Shown here: piece by piece, positions 29,596-42,600 of the stretch | Position numbering within the stretch: position 1 is the first letter of the stretch | Layout: every line of letters begins with the position of its first letter | Assembly: GCA_946407635.1 (NCBI GenBank) | Contig: CAMJOZ010000005.1 | Span: 1 to 50,412 of the forward strand | Direction of reading: 5' to 3' | Source: an uncultured Caryophanales bacterium | GTDB lineage: Bacteria > Bacillota_I > Bacilli_A > Acholeplasmatales > Anaeroplasmataceae | Length of the DNA: 50,412 nucleotides | The notes under the pieces: model-generated | Database searches by the model: none | What the model was told of the DNA's origin: nothing | The model's input: the letters and a program-made list of their open reading frames with translations, nothing else | Translations under genes and position numbers: made by a program

Positions 29596-29775
29596 AAAAG
29601 TCCTTAGAAAAATCTAAGGACGAATTATCGCGGTACCACCTTAGTTCTATATCAAAGATATAGCACTCATTAATAGTAATTCTCATAATATGTATTTCAA
29701 TTATTTTATTCTATCTATTTCCACCAAACATAGACTCTCTAAAATGATATAAAACAATCTACTAATTATTAATCA
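29596..29775 (-). ncRNA. T-box leader of tyrS
   Basis: Minus-strand leader with the T-box core AAGGTGGTACCGCG (plus 29628-29642), a terminator GTCCTTAGA/TCTAAGGAC plus T-run (29596-29621), and a stem I with GGTGG in its distal part. The likely specifier is UAC (plus 29692-29694) in GAAAUACAU, a tyrosine codon, matching the downstream gene. Binding of uncharged tRNA-Tyr would favour the antiterminator. Confidence 0.93.
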
Positions 29776-29781
29776 TCGAAT

Positions 29782-30777
29782 TTATTTAGTTGATTCTCTT
29801 TCAACAATCTTATAAGGTAATAATACCTTAGTGTCTGTTACATCCTCATGAGTCATAAACTTAGTCAATAATCTCATTGAAACAGCGCCTATATCATACA
29901 CCGGAGTATCTACGCATGTCAAGGTTGGTCTTGATAAAAGTGCATATTTAGTATTTTGTAAACCAACTACAACTATATCATCAGGAACCTTAAATCCTTG
30001 CTTGAATGCAACATTAATAAAATTAACAGCGATTGAATCTCTAACAGCTATGATAGCTTCAACCTTGTTATTCTTTAAGAATTCTTGGAAGTGTAATGTA
30101 TTAATAGATACATCTCCACTTGTTCTAAAAACTAATGGCTCTAAACCAGCTTCTTTCATAGCTTTTGTGTAACCAGCAATCTTCTTATAATTGATTGCAT
30201 ATTTGTGAACTGTAGATGCTAAATATATTTTCTTTTTACCTGATTGTAATAATTCTTTAGTAATATCATATGTAGCTTCTTCATAATCTATAGCTACTGA
30301 TGGAATATCTTTCTCATCATAACAAGCATTACATAATACTACTGGTATTTGAGCATCAGAAATGTGATTTAAAACCATACCCATTTCATTTGGATCTAAT
30401 TCATCATTTAAGAATAAAATACCATCAACTTGTTCAGCAACTACTTGACGCATTACTTCTTTCTTATCAGAATCTTCATCCATTTCAAATAATTTAACAG
30501 CATATTCATACTTCTTAGCAACATCCAATATACCACCTAATAGTTGTGCACCAGCAGCTCTAGATACATCAGACATAATAATACCAACAGTAGTTGATTT
30601 ACGGCTAGCAAGACCTCTAGCAATAGCATTTGGTCTATATCCTAAATCTTTAATTACCTTTAAAACCTTTTCTCTTGTTTCAGGATTAACTTTTTCAGGG
30701 TTGTTCATTACACGACTTACAGTCGCAAGTGAAACCTTTGCCGCACCAGCAACATCATAAATTGTTGTATTTGCCAT
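29782..30777 (-). CDS. ccpA: catabolite control protein A (LacI family)
   Basis: A 331-aa LacI/GalR regulator very close to CcpA: N-terminal HTH TIYDVAGAAKVSLATVSRVM, hinge RPNAIARGLASRKSTTVG, effector domain, and YDIGAVSMRLLTKFM near the C terminus as in CcpA. It mediates carbon catabolite control with phospho-HPr in Bacillota. ATG 30777 has GAGGTGACAAG upstream; the longer frame to 30822 runs into the promoter. It ends just upstream of the tyrS T-box. Confidence 0.9.
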   Translation of the reverse strand: MANTTIYDVAGAAKVSLATVSRVMNNPEKVNPETREKVLKVIKDLGYRPNAIARGLASRKSTTVGIIMSDVSRAAGAQLLGGILDVAKKYEYAVKLFEMDEDSDKKEVMRQVVAEQVDGILFLNDELDPNEMGMVLNHISDAQIPVVLCNACYDEKDIPSVAIDYEEATYDITKELLQSGKKKIYLASTVHKYAINYKKIAGYTKAMKEAGLEPLVFRTSGDVSINTLHFQEFLKNNKVEAIIAVRDSIAVNFINVAFKQGFKVPDDIVVVGLQNTKYALLSRPTLTCVDTPVYDIGAVSMRLLTKFMTHEDVTDTKVLLPYKIVERESTK

Positions 30778-36235: not shown

Positions 36236-36300
36236 CCAAAAAACCAGCCACATTGTGACTGATTTTTTGTGTATTTATATTTCGAAGGAAAGGGCATAAA
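36236..36300 (-). ncRNA. 3'-UTR RNA element resembling the sRNA at 40390-40479
   Basis: The 3' UTR of the surface-protein gene has, in order, a C/U-rich segment GCCCUUUCCUUCG (plus 36283-36295), UAUAAAUACAC, and terminator AAUCAGUCACA/UGUGGCUGGUU with U-tail (36236-36264). The sRNA at 40390-40479 has UUUCCUUCCCUU, UAAAAAUACGC and terminator AACCAGUCA/UGGCUGGUU in the same order. The shared segments suggest a related 3'-UTR-derived sRNA or a decoy for its targets. Confidence 0.45.
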
Positions 36301-36302
36301 TT

Positions 36303-39300
36303 CTATTTAACTAATTCTTCTTTAGTATTAAATACTTCATTTTCTTCACGATATATAATCATTAATGTCATATTTAATAATCTAACCTTACCGTTCTTTT
36401 TACCAATTACGAATACTCTAATAGGATTACCATTTGCTAAAGTCCACTTATTGAATACAAAGAATAATAAGAAATAAGCTATAACTAAACCTAGGATGAT
36501 TCCACCCATAATGCCTAAAGCTACCATCCAACCTACAAGTGTTCTATGATCATTTCTTAAACCACTATAAGTTTTTTCATCAGTTGTTAATTTATCATAA
36601 TTGATAACTAAAGTTTTTTCTTCATCTGTTAAATTGTCATAAGCAATTCTTGCAGCCTCAAGACCTTCTTCAGTTTGATCATTATATTTAACTTCCTTAA
36701 CAGCTTCAATCTTCTTATATACATCATCTACATGATAATATAAGTCGACATCATGTGCTAAAGTTTGATAATTTGTTACTAAAGCTTTAGATTCAGTACT
36801 TAATTTATCATATTCAGTTTTAGCATTATCAATCTTAGTCTTTGATTCATTAGAATATGTAACTGTACCAATATTTTTAATTAATTCTATAACATAAGAA
36901 GCTTCTTTTTGAGTTAAAACATTATAATTTGATACAGCATTCTTAGCTTTTTGAGTTAAAGCATCATAAGCTGTACGAGCAGCATCAATTAATGCTTTAA
37001 TTTCAGGTTTATATTCTACATCACCAATATTATTAATTTTACCAATAACTAAACCAGCATTAGTATAATCATTTTCAGCTTCAACTAATGTATTATAATT
37101 AGTAACTTGTGCTTTTTCTTCTTCTTTTAAGAAATCATAAGCACCACGAGCAGCATCGATTTTTTCTTTACATAGATCTGTATATTCTACATTGCCAATA
37201 TCATTTATAAATCCAATAACATCCTCAGGTTTAATTCCTATAAAACTGATATATTTATAATTACCAATGTTATCTACACCAGTTGGACTAATTTCTATTT
37301 TAGTTTCATCTTGAGTTCCATCAACATCAGTCCAGCCAATACCTTCTATTTCATTTATTACAATACCATAGATTGCGTTTGTATATCCACTTGCAATAAG
37401 AGCTCTTACATTTTCACCAATAGTTATTGTTGAACCTGAAGCTATTGCATATGATTCTGTGTTTTCGCCAGTTACTGATATAGATAAAGATCCATTTCCA
37501 ATAAATTTGATTTTAGCACTTTCGTTACCAGAATTATGAATACCACATACTGCAAAAGGTGAATCATCTTGTGTAAGAACTATTGTATTATTACCAACTA
37601 AATTAATAGTAAAAACAACTTCATCTTCACCATCATAATCATAACTAATGGCTGCAATAAAATTATCACCAATATTTACGAAATTACTATATACTTTACC
37701 AGGACCTACATACTCATAACCATTTAATGTTAATGTATTAGTATCCTTATCATAACTCCAGCCTTTACCTTGTAAATTTGAATCATTTACAACTTGACCA
37801 TCAATAATTACTGTATTTGTATGATAATAATAAATTGTTTCGAATTTACGTTCAGGAGTTAAAGTTTTAGCTATTTCTAATGATTTATAGTTACCACCAA
37901 TTGCTTTTTCATATTCTTTAGCAGTTGCTCTAACTCGTGCTATATTATCAGTAATTGCAATAACACCACATGAGCCATCTTTACCAGAACCTATTCCAGA
38001 ACCACAATTTTCAGTACTACTACAACTACTATTTGCCTCAACAAATCCACCATCGATTGTTATATCGCCACAAGCTTCTCCCATAGCACTACCGATACCT
38101 GCACCATCAGTAGCTGTAGAATTAATACGGCCACCATTAATTGTAATATTTCCTGATTGAAGGTCATTATCTAAAGAATAACCGCCACCAATACCTGCAG
38201 CATTTGTTCCACCTATTGCATTAATGTCTCCACCATTAATTACAATATTACCGCTATTTGTATTAGCATTTCCTCCAATACCTGCAGCTCCATCTCTACC
38301 AGTAGAATCTAGTATACCATCTCCATCAATAGTTAATGTGTGTCCTTGTGGTACAAATATACCTGCACCACCATTAAATCCACATATATCATTATTTCCT
38401 TTTATAATTAATGTTGCATCACCTAAACATGTAATACCAGCAAAAGATCCTTCAGTTTTAGAACCACTAATATGAATATCCTTTAATGTAACTGTTGCAT
38501 TATCAGGAATAGAAATCTTAACTAGTCTTTGCAATTCACCTATTAATATTTGTCCATCAGGAACTATATAATCAGATGTAAGAACTGAAATATCAAATAC
38601 TTCTAATGGCTTAACAATTGAAACAAATCCATTTTCATCAGAACTGCCATCAGAATTAATATTTACAATTTCATATCCTGGAGCGACCTTATTAACATCA
38701 GCTAAATAATTGGTAATTATTTCAGCAGATAATACCAAACGACAATCACTCAATTTAACATATGAATTTGTAAGATTATTTCCTATAAAACATGAACCAT
38801 TAACTCCACCTGTATCAGGCCTACTGTTTCTTATTTCAACAACTATATTTTCTGATGAAACAAGTAATGTAGGAGTTCCATGAGAACCATCTTCCATTGT
38901 TGTTGTTAGAATATTACCATTAAGATCAAATGTAAAATTCTTAGTAATATTTATATGTTCATTAGATAAATCTACATTATGTCTTAATGTTATAGTTTCT
39001 CCATCATTTAAAGCAGCAAATGCCTCTGGTAAAAATGCATATTTTGTATTACCAATTTGAGCTTCAGCATTTTCTTCAAATAACTCATTAAATGATTCTT
39101 CTGCATCTAACAATGTTTGATAATTAGTTACAGCATTCTTTTCTTCAGCACTTAATGAATCGTAACCAGCTCTGGCTTCTTTAATTTTACCTTTTGATGT
39201 AGGTGTAAATTCAACTGTGCCTATATTACCAATTAAAGTTTCTACACCAGAAGCATTTATTTTCCACTTAGCATATAAGGCATCAGCATCTTCTAATATT

Positions 39301-40304
39301 AAACTATTAACATCTGATTCAGATAATTCTGTAGAATAATTATTTCCAGTTCCATCAGCTTTTGAATTCCAACCATTAAAACTAAATAATTCTCTACTAA
39401 ATCCAGTATTAGGAGCTTGATTTGCTTCATCATAAGTTAAGTTTATTGTTCCCGAACCAACTCCGCCATTACTATTAAGACTAACAGTTTTAGTTTTAGG
39501 AGTCGCATTAAATGAACCAAAATCAACAGTCTCATTACTTATAGTTCTTGATCCAACTCTATAAATAGCACCAGAAGTATTTGCAGTTCCAGATACCAAA
39601 GCCCAATCAGTTGAAGCATTATATCCAGCTTTTAGTTCAACAAATCCATATACTGTTGATTCTTCATCAAAACCTGAACCACTTGCACTTCCAGATGTAG
39701 CTGAATCACTATTTGATAAATATGCTGATTTTATACCTGTACCTGCAGTGATTGTTACTGTTTGTTGTGGCTGATCTTCAAAAAGTGTTATTTCATGAAC
39801 CCAGAATTGGACTTGATTTATGCTAGCATACGGAGAATCTTCAGTAGCAATAAAAGTAAAAACTATTTTATCGTTAGAACTTGGAAGCTCTACATCAAAT
39901 TCTGTATTATTGTCGTTTGTAATAGCTTTAGTCGTACTGGTAGTACCCTTTGTTATTTTAAAGTCAGCATTGTAAGCTATCGAAACACTTACGCCAAGTC
40001 TAACTTTTCTAATATTATATTGCTTTGTATTATTATAAGTTATCGTAACCGTATCGCCCTTGCCTGTAACAACAAAATCAAATTCAGGCTTAGATGTATA
40101 AGATTGTGTACCTTGACTAAATGTAAAATCACCAGATGTTTTAGTACCAGATGTAATCGAACCAACATCAAGAGCATCTACTTGTTTATAACTAATTTCA
40201 GCATAAGTCTTTGTTGTCGATAATAGCATAAATGCTAATGAACAAACAAAAACAAATAAAGCAATAATAGGAAATAGAATCCTCTTTCTAAATAATTTGC
40301 TCAT
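36303..40304 (-). CDS. giant cell-surface protein, beta-helix and helical repeats, C-terminal TM
   Basis: A 1333-aa secreted protein. In order: signal peptide (1-~36, FLLST...TYAE region); an N-terminal beta-rich module; a Listeria-Bacteroides (InlB B) repeat with SFNGWNSKADGTGNNYS (about 270-345); one ~50-residue helical repeat (IGTVEFTP...YDSLSAEEKNAVTNY); a Gly/Asn-rich right-handed beta-helix (GNIVINGGDINAIGG..., AAGIGGG, GAGIGS, GSGIGSG; about 590-770); four more helical repeats (about 1010-1230); then one membrane helix (GIMGGIILGLVIAYFLLFF) and a ~55-residue cytoplasmic tail. There is no LPXTG. AAGGAGG precedes the ATG. It is likely an adhesin or glycan-binding protein. Its promoter shares a 22-bp element with the adjacent sRNA. 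Confidence 0.88.
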   Translation of the reverse strand: MSKLFRKRILFPIIALFVFVCSLAFMLLSTTKTYAEISYKQVDALDVGSITSGTKTSGDFTFSQGTQSYTSKPEFDFVVTGKGDTVTITYNNTKQYNIRKVRLGVSVSIAYNADFKITKGTTSTTKAITNDNNTEFDVELPSSNDKIVFTFIATEDSPYASINQVQFWVHEITLFEDQPQQTVTITAGTGIKSAYLSNSDSATSGSASGSGFDEESTVYGFVELKAGYNASTDWALVSGTANTSGAIYRVGSRTISNETVDFGSFNATPKTKTVSLNSNGGVGSGTINLTYDEANQAPNTGFSRELFSFNGWNSKADGTGNNYSTELSESDVNSLILEDADALYAKWKINASGVETLIGNIGTVEFTPTSKGKIKEARAGYDSLSAEEKNAVTNYQTLLDAEESFNELFEENAEAQIGNTKYAFLPEAFAALNDGETITLRHNVDLSNEHINITKNFTFDLNGNILTTTMEDGSHGTPTLLVSSENIVVEIRNSRPDTGGVNGSCFIGNNLTNSYVKLSDCRLVLSAEIITNYLADVNKVAPGYEIVNINSDGSSDENGFVSIVKPLEVFDISVLTSDYIVPDGQILIGELQRLVKISIPDNATVTLKDIHISGSKTEGSFAGITCLGDATLIIKGNNDICGFNGGAGIFVPQGHTLTIDGDGILDSTGRDGAAGIGGNANTNSGNIVINGGDINAIGGTNAAGIGGGYSLDNDLQSGNITINGGRINSTATDGAGIGSAMGEACGDITIDGGFVEANSSCSSTENCGSGIGSGKDGSCGVIAITDNIARVRATAKEYEKAIGGNYKSLEIAKTLTPERKFETIYYYHTNTVIIDGQVVNDSNLQGKGWSYDKDTNTLTLNGYEYVGPGKVYSNFVNIGDNFIAAISYDYDGEDEVVFTINLVGNNTIVLTQDDSPFAVCGIHNSGNESAKIKFIGNGSLSISVTGENTESYAIASGSTITIGENVRALIASGYTNAIYGIVINEIEGIGWTDVDGTQDETKIEISPTGVDNIGNYKYISFIGIKPEDVIGFINDIGNVEYTDLCKEKIDAARGAYDFLKEEEKAQVTNYNTLVEAENDYTNAGLVIGKINNIGDVEYKPEIKALIDAARTAYDALTQKAKNAVSNYNVLTQKEASYVIELIKNIGTVTYSNESKTKIDNAKTEYDKLSTESKALVTNYQTLAHDVDLYYHVDDVYKKIEAVKEVKYNDQTEEGLEAARIAYDNLTDEEKTLVINYDKLTTDEKTYSGLRNDHRTLVGWMVALGIMGGIILGLVIAYFLLFFVFNKWTLANGNPIRVFVIGKKNGKVRLLNMTLMIIYREENEVFNTKEELVK

Positions 40305-40356
40305 AATTAAGTTCCTCCTTAATATAAAATTAAAACACTTCGATTAACTTACAAAC

Positions 40357-40392
40357 ATTCTATCACTACTACTGCAACAAAAGTGCAACAAA
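40357..40392 (-). promoter_or_regulatory. promoter A of the surface protein with SARP-like direct repeats
   Basis: On the minus strand TGTTGCA (40384-40390), CTTT, TGTTGCA (40373-40379), 10 bp, TAGAAT (40357-40362). No good -35 is present at the expected place, as expected for an activator-dependent promoter. The heptamers repeat at an 11-bp period, the arrangement known for SARP-type regulators. Confidence 0.7.
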
Positions 40393-40479
40393 GAAAAAAC
40401 CAGCCATTTCTGACTGGTTCTTCTTAGCGTATTTTTAAGGGAAGGAAATTCAAAGAAATTACATCATTTCATGTAATCT
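40390..40479 (-). ncRNA. candidate ~90-nt sRNA upstream of the surface-protein gene
   Basis: Transcribed from promoter B (TATAAT 40486-40491), predicted start near 40479. 5' hairpin AUUACAU/AUGUAAU (40458-40477), a single-stranded C/U-rich segment UUUCCUUCCCUU (40437-40448), UAAAAAUACGC, then terminator AACCAGUCA-GAAA-UGGCUGGUU plus U-tail (40394-40419). No ORF of note. The C/U-rich segment is complementary to AAGGGAAGGAAA-like ribosome binding sites, the usual mode of Gram-positive C-rich sRNAs. A related element ends the surface-protein mRNA. Confidence 0.55.
40394..40419 (-). terminator. terminator of the candidate sRNA
   Basis: Minus strand AACCAGTCA-GAAA-TGGCTGGTT followed by TTTTC; it ends a few bases before the direct repeats of promoter A. 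Confidence 0.8.
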
Positions 40480-40485
40480 GGCCTC

Positions 40486-40521
40486 ATTATAACAAACTAA
40501 CTGCAACAAAAGTGCAACAAA
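40486..40521 (-). promoter_or_regulatory. promoter B of the candidate sRNA with SARP-like direct repeats
   Basis: On the minus strand TGTTGCA (40513-40519), CTTT, TGTTGCA (40502-40508), 10 bp, TATAAT (40486-40491). The 22 bp at 40500-40521 are identical to 40371-40392 of promoter A, and the distance to the -10 is also identical. Confidence 0.7.
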
Positions 40522-40552
40522 TAAAAAAAATGCCACAATAAATGTGACATTT
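40521..40552 (-). terminator. terminator after the response-regulator gene
   Basis: Minus strand AAATGTCACA-TTTAT-TGTGGCATTT plus T-run, overlapping the stop codon. It separates the two-component operon from promoter B. Confidence 0.8.
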
Positions 40553-41330
40553 AATCAGCATATTCATCTTCATCATTAAATAATGCCCATGAATATTGAA
40601 TCATATATTCTCCTCTATAGCTTCTGATAGCATCAGGATTATTATTTTTATATTCATATGCATCACAATCAATTTTTGTAATATCTATAAAGCATTCATT
40701 ATGTCTTTTGACAAAAACGTCTTGAGCGTCTACTTCTTTTAATGTATCTTGAATATCTGCAATTAGATTTCTTAAATATGAATTCTTATCTTCTTCCCAT
40801 AATATGGCATTAAGCTCGTTCATATTTGTAGAAGCTCCTTCTCTATCAACTAAATAAGCAAATAATTCTTTTGATTTTTGTCTTTTAAATTTTAATGGAA
40901 CACCATCTTTAAACACTTCGAAATTTCCAAAACATTTAACTTGTAATAATTTATCAGTACTTGGTTTTAATTCTTCAGTATATCTTAAGCTTTCTAATTG
41001 ATCTTTTATTTTATTTTCAGTTACAGGCTTCATTACATATCCTGAGGCATGAATATTATATGCATCTAAAGCATAATTATTATAAGCTGTAACGAATATA
41101 ATATTTATTAATGGATTAATCTTCTTTAATTTTTTAGCAAGCTGAATACCAGTTAATACAGGCATTTCAATATCTAAAAAAGCTATATCAAATTTATTTT
41201 CTATATTTTCTTCATACGCTTTTTTAGGATTTGTGTATTTAAAAAATTCTTCATTAGGCAAAACCTTTTTACAAACATTTTCTAATCTTACCAATTGTAA
41301 TTCTTCATCATCAACTAACAAGATTTTCAA
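40551..41330 (-). CDS. response regulator with SARP-type winged-helix output
   Basis: 259 aa. Receiver domain (about 1-118) with acidic DDEE, phosphorylated Asp in FLDIEMP, Thr in FVTAYN and Lys in VMKPV. The output domain (about 128-225: QVKCFGNFEVFKDGVPLKF, RQKSKELFAYLVDREG, LNAILWEE) is the winged helix of SARP/COG3947-type regulators, not LytTR. It follows the histidine kinase by 10 bp. The start is TTG at 41330 with GAGGTGAT upstream. The heptamer direct repeats just downstream are its likely targets. Confidence 0.88.
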   Translation of the reverse strand: MKILLVDDEELQLVRLENVCKKVLPNEEFFKYTNPKKAYEENIENKFDIAFLDIEMPVLTGIQLAKKLKKINPLINIIFVTAYNNYALDAYNIHASGYVMKPVTENKIKDQLESLRYTEELKPSTDKLLQVKCFGNFEVFKDGVPLKFKRQKSKELFAYLVDREGASTNMNELNAILWEEDKNSYLRNLIADIQDTLKEVDAQDVFVKRHNECFIDITKIDCDAYEYKNNNPDAIRSYRGEYMIQYSWALFNDEDEYAD

Positions 41331-41340
41331 TTAAATCACC

Positions 41341-42600
41341 TCACTTACTAAATTTAACTATAACTTTTGTTCCTACATTAATTTCACTATTAAATTCAAT
41401 AGTTCCATTCAATGATTCAGTAATTCTATATCTAATATTATTCAAACCATAATGATCTTCATTAAAATTAATATCATTTATATTGAATCCAACTCCATCA
41501 TCAATTACCTCAATAATATATGATAAATCATCCTCATATACCTTTAAAGTAACAGTTCCACCTTCTATTTTCTTTAAAATTCCATGCTTAACTGCATTTT
41601 CAACAAGTGGTTGAATAGTTAAAGGTGGAACATCAAAATCAGTTGTCTTAATATTGTATATTACATTAAGTCTATCATTAAATCTTATTTTTTCTAATGA
41701 TAGATAAGTTTTAATATGTTTCAATTCTTTTTCAAATGGAATTAATCTAGTATCTGTTATAGATGATAAATTCATTCTTAAATAATCAGTAAAATCATCT
41801 AAAGAAGCCTGAGCTTTTTCAGGATCAATTGTAATAAGTGTAGATATAGATGATAATGAATTATAAATAAAATGAGGTTGTATCTGAGATAGCATTAAAG
41901 TTATTTGAGCTTCTCTATTTTTCTTTTCTTCTTGTGCTAAATCAATATTCTTTTGAATATTAACAAAGAAGAATAATATTTCTACAGCTATAATAATAGA
42001 TAAATATGCAATAGCATATCCTTTAAATACGTTTTGTATTATTATCGCAATAAGTGGTAAAAAACAATATATAGCAAATGCTGATTTTTCTCTTATATTT
42101 AGTTTTTTATTTAAAATAGTAACTAAGAATACAACAGCAAGCATCACAAATTGATAACCTTGAGCTATTATCATTGTTTTACTTCTAATATAATTACCAT
42201 CTTCTGCGTAAAAGAATATACCTGTAAATACGTTAATTATATCTAATATAATAAATGATGAAAAAAGGAAGATGTTAAATATAGCTAAAAGATTTCTAAC
42301 ATTTTTCTGTAAAAATACATAATTCATCATATAAACAAATAATAAGAATACTTCAATATTATTAAATATATAAAATAGTGTGTAAAAAGATATAACAAAA
42401 TTATTTGAAGTATAATACATTTTTATTATAGTAAACATTAAATAAACAAAAAAATGTAAAACTGTAAATGAAAAAAATATTAATAATGAATTTTCATCTT
42501 TTCTTCTATTCTTTTTTATTAATATATTAACTACATGAACAAATAATATGAGAATTCCAATTATACATACTGATATATTAAATACTACATTATTTCCCAT
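41341..42600 (-). CDS. membrane sensor histidine kinase (LytS/YesM-type)
   Basis: 419 aa. Seven or so membrane helices fill residues 1-205; the kinase core is of the His_kinase (PF06580) type: QIQPHFIYNSLSSISTLI contains the phosphorylated His, NAVKHGI the N-box, DDGVGFN the G1 box, and GLNNIRYRI the G2 region. The signal sensed is unknown. It ends with TGA, clearly a stop because the ribosome binding site of the next gene overlaps it. It pairs with the SARP-type response regulator downstream. Confidence 0.9.
   Translation of the reverse strand: MGNNVVFNISVCIIGILILFVHVVNILIKKNRRKDENSLLIFFSFTVLHFFVYLMFTIIKMYYTSNNFVISFYTLFYIFNNIEVFLLFVYMMNYVFLQKNVRNLLAIFNIFLFSSFIILDIINVFTGIFFYAEDGNYIRSKTMIIAQGYQFVMLAVVFLVTILNKKLNIREKSAFAIYCFLPLIAIIIQNVFKGYAIAYLSIIIAVEILFFFVNIQKNIDLAQEEKKNREAQITLMLSQIQPHFIYNSLSSISTLITIDPEKAQASLDDFTDYLRMNLSSITDTRLIPFEKELKHIKTYLSLEKIRFNDRLNVIYNIKTTDFDVPPLTIQPLVENAVKHGILKKIEGGTVTLKVYEDDLSYIIEVIDDGVGFNINDINFNEDHYGLNNIRYRITESLNGTIEFNSEINVGTKVIVKFSK

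Follow-up and report, generated by a model that had tools for sequence, protein, structure and literature searches.

In Staphylococcus aureus, RNAIII is the main output of the adjacent agr two-component system; it is a multi-hairpin RNA with C-rich loops and has a peptide gene inside it. The csRNAs of the streptococcal CiaRH system are 51–202 nt long and are composed of stem-loops, an unpaired anti-Shine-Dalgarno region and a terminator, with a direct-repeat box in the promoter. Many sequence types of csRNA occur among species, and they were found by searching for the box together with a terminator (PMC3091779). In Listeria monocytogenes, the LhrC1-5 RNAs depend on LisRK and repress the adhesin LapB at its Shine-Dalgarno region (PMC4132741). 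The DNA analysed here (a stretch of 50,412 nt from an uncultured gut bacterium, hereafter the window) contains a two-component locus with a putative small RNA (sRNA) that can be compared with these systems. Like the csRNAs, it is a short intergenic unit with two predicted stem-loops, an unpaired anti-Shine-Dalgarno stretch between them and a terminator at its end. Like LhrC, it is putatively two-component-dependent and leaves a C/U-rich motif unpaired (in LhrC, an unpaired stretch and loops).

The two-component locus and the short transcription unit

All the features of the locus lie on the minus strand, in the downstream order kinase, response regulator (RR), RR terminator, box 1, sRNA, box 2, surface-protein gene and 3'UTR of the latter. 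The sensor histidine kinase (41341..42600; 419 aa) matched the Pfam families His_kinase (1.1e-22) and HATPase_c (1.7e-09), and its N-terminus is predicted to be a multi-pass membrane region. The RR (40551..41330; 259 aa, with a TTG start) has a CheY receiver (Pfam Response_reg, 1.5e-19) and an OmpR-like winged-helix output domain. No family was assigned to this output domain in the Pfam search; the AlphaFold model of the RR, of moderate confidence (pLDDT 69.8), had OmpR/PhoB response regulators as top Foldseek matches (e.g. DrrB, 1p2f, E 3.5e-11). A SARP-type output domain, prompted by the promoter geometry, was rejected on the basis of these matches and with the same moderate confidence. A paralogous RR was also seen at ~40% identity. 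One terminator with a 10-bp stem and a T tract (40523..40552) closes the RR gene and separates it from the sRNA unit. Elsewhere in the window, a T-box leader is located at 29613-29785 on the minus strand (Rfam RF00230, 97.7 bits).

Box 1 (TTGCACTTTTGTTGCA; 40502..40517), which is a 16-bp direct repeat of 11-bp period and the proposed RR operator, precedes the putative sRNA promoter, whose -10 element is TATAAT (40486..40491) with TGT before it. No sigma-70-type hexamer pair was found in 40290-40600, and the absence of a -35 consensus at the sRNA promoter is consistent with activator dependence, with the box standing in for the -35 element. An identical box 2 (40373..40388) is located ahead of the surface-protein gene, at the same 10-nt spacing from the -10 element of the predicted surface-protein promoter (TAGAAT, 40357..40362) as box 1 from its own. 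Comparable geometries have been described for the CiaR repeat TTTAAG-N5-TTTAAG, a direct repeat of 11-bp period over the -35 region (PMC3091779), and for the promoters of SARP activators, in which direct repeats also lie over the -35 region (PMC10936776).

The sRNA itself is estimated at ~86 nt (40394..40479), its 5' end being placed from the -10 element and its 3' end from the T tract. It begins with the hairpin AUUACAU-GAAAUG-AUGUAAU (40458..40477), followed by the C/U-rich segment UUUCCUUCCCUU (40437..40448), complementary to the Shine-Dalgarno-like AAGGGAAGGAAA and with UUUCCUUC at 40448-40441, by the AU-rich UUAAAAAUACGC (40438-40427) and by the predicted terminator GAAGAACCAGUCA-GAAA-UGGCUGGUUUUUU (40394..40423). 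Folding predicted the 5' hairpin, an unpaired UUUCCUUCCCUU and the terminator (z -3.5). No ORF of at least 10 codons is present in the sRNA. A search against Rfam 15 gave no match at the gathering threshold, and when the E-value cut-off was raised up to 5, only a weak, chance-like match to an S15 leader inside an ORF appeared. As read from the sequence, the separate small RNA suggested in the earlier note is supported, with its own box, -10 element and terminator, and with a regulator box in common with the surface-protein gene. The same note had described the sRNA and the 3'UTR as the two ends of one transcription unit; since sRNA and surface gene each have their own box and -10 element, and the sRNA its own terminator, they are instead two tandem units.

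The box and box-driven RNAs in related genomes

The exact box TTGCANNTTTGTKGCA was found at 61 sites in 27 genomes of the genus, against none for the reversed controls. It was present in all the genomes in which the RR was detected (11/11) and in three of the other 16 genomes, these with one or two matches each, mostly within genes. When the box was searched together with a -10 element, allowing up to three mismatches, 92 sites against two controls were obtained in the 11 RR-bearing genomes, nearly all of them immediately 5' of genes, including those for surface proteins, lipoproteins and repeat-like soluble proteins. Beyond this set, 80 further RR loci (62-81% identity) were taken from public genomes, most of which are rumen MAGs with the label Bacilli or Clostridia; these loci yielded 73 boxes against zero controls, often right behind the RR gene. 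From these sequence comparisons we infer that the RR binds the box.

Boxes 1 and 2 are the only exact boxes in the window's own genome, where three weaker ones were also observed, at L223 2722 (C15:17221), L224 (C54:8487) and L206 (C69:6245). The genes behind them encode two lipoproteins and one membrane histidine-kinase-like protein, and the C15 gene has a leader of 172 nt. In some congeners the box regulon reaches about 20 sites (L168, L175, L176 and L42-type loci; genomes G011, G012, G013 and G041), many of which drive related proteins devoid of a signal peptide, with starts such as MPKYKPLTEEEKE and MPILTRQKLNEIKYVSL.

Conservation in relatives had been set beforehand as a refutation test; the architecture of the sRNA was found to recur in them, whereas its sequence was not. 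DNA searches of the 27 genus genomes with the sRNA gave short matches only, the best one (29 nt in G004, E 1.4e-4) lying in the region of the 5' hairpin, and for this reason compensatory base changes cannot be scored. An ORF-free, C/U-rich, terminator-ended unit was found behind four of the about 90 box sites of the genus, in the window, G042, G009 and G013. The G042 RNA occupies the same place right after the RR gene and carries CUCUCC and the terminator loop CCUCCCUACUCUCUCCCGC. The other two are unlinked to the RR: the G009 RNA (contig C17) contains AAUCCCUCC and AUCCCC, and the G013 RNA (contig C41) contains CAUCUUUUUCCUUUCUUG and then AAAAUACUCC, much like UUUCCUUCCCUU-AAAAAUACGC of the window. 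No alignment among these four RNAs is possible; they are predicted to fold alike, with one or more 5' hairpins, unpaired C/U and a terminator (z -3.5, -5.0, -5.9 and -4.5 for the window, G042, G009 and G013, respectively). At most RR-adjacent loci (e.g. G006, G009 and G011-G014) no sRNA was found between the RR and the next gene. The contig of the G042 two-component locus also bears a c-di-GMP-I riboswitch (L251 1351-1426).

Outside the genus, a related RNA of ~200-250 nt with C/U-rich segments was found directly after the RR gene in at least seven genomes (G043, G044, G045, G046, G047, G052 and G064; hereafter the G043 group), at the loci L281 (6840-7105), L286, L288 (2102-2332), L291 and L295, with homologues in G052 C130 and G064 C18 (92%). 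In L281 and L286 the first hairpin of the RNA encloses UGUUCCUUCCCUUUUU, and the later loops are UCUCCUUUC. Predicted folding was strong in L281 and L288 (z -5.0 and -4.7); in L291 it was weak (z -1.2). Covariation was thin (five uneven sequences), and no Rfam family was assigned at the gathering threshold. In the seven genomes the box without mismatches was always the one before this RNA, which points to this RNA as one of the main outputs of the system. Weaker boxes were detected in five of the seven, in several of them including one ~2.5 kb upstream of the RNA, so that the system may also regulate itself. At another locus, L275 (6776-6950), a box right after the RR is followed by a region of ~150 nt with UUUCUCCUUCCCUAAUCC ahead of a small ORF; this region could represent a further RNA rich in C/U, or else a leader.

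Predicted targets and resemblance to the surface-protein 3'UTR

The gene behind box 2 (36303..40304) encodes a large surface protein of 1333 aa with a signal-peptide-like N-terminus, repeats, a C-terminal TM segment and a short tail. It gave no Pfam match, and its C-terminal region was matched in 11 of the 27 genus genomes, including the window's own. The 3'UTR of its mRNA contains the C/U-rich CCCUUUCCUUC (36284..36294), with UUUCCUUC at 36291-36284, the AU-rich UAUAAAUACAC (36269..36279), which resembles UUAAAAAUACGC of the sRNA, and a terminator with a stem like that of the sRNA terminator (36237..36269). The presence of UUUCCUUC, the AU-rich piece and the terminator stem in both RNAs, at the places given by the earlier note, was therefore confirmed. 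A pattern picked after seeing both segments, TTTCCTTC-N2..30-TAWAAATACRC, occurs in two places in the whole assembly, the sRNA and the 3'UTR.

Local alignment of the sRNA with the 3'UTR scored 53.5, against 25.8 +/- 5.1 (maximum 44) for 123 further terminators of this genome (65-nt ends; ~450 kb of sequence, consisting of the window and ~400 kb from other stretches). With the terminator excluded, the 3'UTR dropped to the fifth rank in the alignment to the sRNA. The likeness between the two RNAs is beyond chance, but most of it comes from the terminator stem and a single 8-mer. Pyrimidine runs with at least four C were present in 9% of the terminator-ending windows, and thus the C/U run of the 3'UTR is unexceptional by itself. 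Pairing of the 3'UTR with the sRNA was considered and rejected, because the C/U motif has the same sense in both; through this motif, only competition for common targets or for a common protein would remain for the two RNAs.

Duplexes between the unpaired segment of the sRNA and 262 genes were predicted, and 12.6% of the translation initiation regions fell below -12 kcal/mol, compared with 1.1% of the coding controls. The gain over shuffled segments was modest (median -8.8 versus -7.4, with a standard deviation of 0.8 for the shuffles), anti-Shine-Dalgarno motifs being generic. The surface gene ranked about 65 of 262 and is consequently not a privileged target; neither this gene nor those of the kinase and the regulator were singled out among the 262. 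Given this preference for initiation regions and the lack of one for the surface gene, the most likely role of the sRNA is that of a trans-acting anti-Shine-Dalgarno RNA. The 3'UTR segment likewise favoured translation initiation regions in the predictions, and the surface gene's own region reached -14.4 kcal/mol with it versus -10.3 with the sRNA.

One important question is what the resemblance of the 3'UTR means. The earlier note had suggested that a second sRNA might be released from the 3'UTR, or that the 3'UTR might be a sponge for common targets or a common protein, with feedback between adhesin and sRNA. In favour of this are the three elements that are more alike than in other terminators of the genome and the predicted duplexes with initiation regions, that of the surface gene among them. 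However, neither a box nor a promoter-like site was found on the minus strand before the 3'UTR segment, and neither the shared C/U segment nor the CAGUCA/UGGCUGG stem was found at the 3' ends of the homologous or co-regulated surface genes examined (G041 C15 and C160, G009 C38, G011 C118 and C91, G012 C8 and C12, G013 C22, G018 and G001). With the C/U run at the 9% background, the terminator carrying most of the likeness and the two RNAs unable to pair via their common motif, this proposal is unsupported, and we consider it improbable. The resemblance is probably best seen as a similar terminator, by common origin or convergence, beside a C/U run, and either origin suffices to explain it. That the likeness reflects origin only, the terminators deriving from local duplication or conversion, or from convergence, and serving termination alone, is in our opinion an evenly balanced proposition: the main shared element is the terminator stem, and similar UGGCUGG stems are found in other terminators of the genus. 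Nevertheless, this explanation covers the likeness alone; it accounts neither for a short unit with a box of its own nor for the occurrence of such units in related genomes, and it is compatible with a two-component-controlled sRNA. Hence, the sRNA is the part of the original finding that is worth following, and its look-alike in the 3'UTR is not yet.

With regard to the short unit, it might be a non-functional by-product, either what is left of the promoter and terminator of an ancestral gene or an extra copy of the promoter before the surface gene. The lack of sequence conservation of the sRNA in relatives would fit such an origin, and a tandem box could merely raise expression through read-through; against this, ORF-free, C/U-rich, box-driven RNAs occur in several lineages, a related RNA is found at the RR in at least seven genomes, and the folding z-scores also speak against it, so that we regard a by-product as unlikely, if less so than a second sRNA from the 3'UTR. 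Although any RNA can hold tiny ORFs, a small peptide encoded by the short unit was rejected as an explanation and is barely conceivable, as ORFs of at least 10 codons are absent from all four RNAs of the genus (window, G042, G009 and G013).

Proposed regulation and comparison with known systems

The reading we favour, with a probability of about two in three, is that the short unit encodes a two-component-controlled anti-Shine-Dalgarno sRNA that is made in parallel with the surface protein. According to this model, the kinase and the OmpR-like RR would activate two tandem promoters through the identical direct-repeat boxes that replace the -35 elements, the first promoter giving rise to the non-coding RNA and the second one to the surface-protein mRNA. 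The unpaired UUUCCUUCCCUU would most likely pair with the Shine-Dalgarno regions of target mRNAs, the translation of which would be lowered by the sRNA when the two-component system is on. Box, promoter, terminator, predicted fold, the missing ORF and the occurrence of similar box-driven RNAs in other genomes are read from the sequences; binding of the box, expression of the sRNA, its targets and the direction of regulation are inferred within this model.

A wider proposal, which we put forward tentatively and at slightly less than even odds, is that the locus belongs to a previously undescribed module that is widespread among gut-dwelling Bacilli and Clostridia, bacteria for which metagenomes are the main source of knowledge. 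In such a module one two-component system would control, through the TTGCAC-N5-TTGCA box, large surface proteins and a C/U-rich anti-Shine-Dalgarno RNA, the latter re-invented or diverged beyond recognition between lineages and constituting the main output in the G043 group, as RNAIII does for agr. If this is true, the box is precise enough for regulons and RNAs to be predicted from sequence only, and RNAs that change in sequence while keeping the same place and the same box provide a natural series on the origin of such sRNAs and on the part of them that is selected.

Unlike the csRNAs, the window RNA is preceded by the box TTGCAC-N5-TTGCA instead of the CiaR repeat and is associated with another kinase and regulator, and one of the RNAs seen here often lies directly behind the regulator gene. 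The window RNA also lacks the anti-start codon of the csRNAs, no CAU, CAC or CAA being present beside UUUCCUUCCCUU in the unpaired stretch, and in this it is unlike the G013 RNA, which reads CAUCUUUUUCCUUU. LhrC is multicopy, with UCCC motifs in three places, whereas the window RNA is present in one copy with one C/U segment; and in contrast to lapB, the surface gene of the window is putatively co-activated and is not a predicted preferred target. The RNA found at the RR in the G043 group resembles RNAIII, from which it differs in the regulator box and in the absence of an Rfam match. Since its box and regulator are different and it has no Rfam match, the window RNA falls outside the csRNA and LhrC families; on present evidence, it would work like the csRNAs and LhrC as a member of neither. 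If the proposed module is real, the logic of the csRNAs, LhrC and RNAIII, by which an anti-Shine-Dalgarno RNA mediates part or most of the action of a two-component system, also holds under a different regulator and in a large group of gut bacteria that are uncultured.
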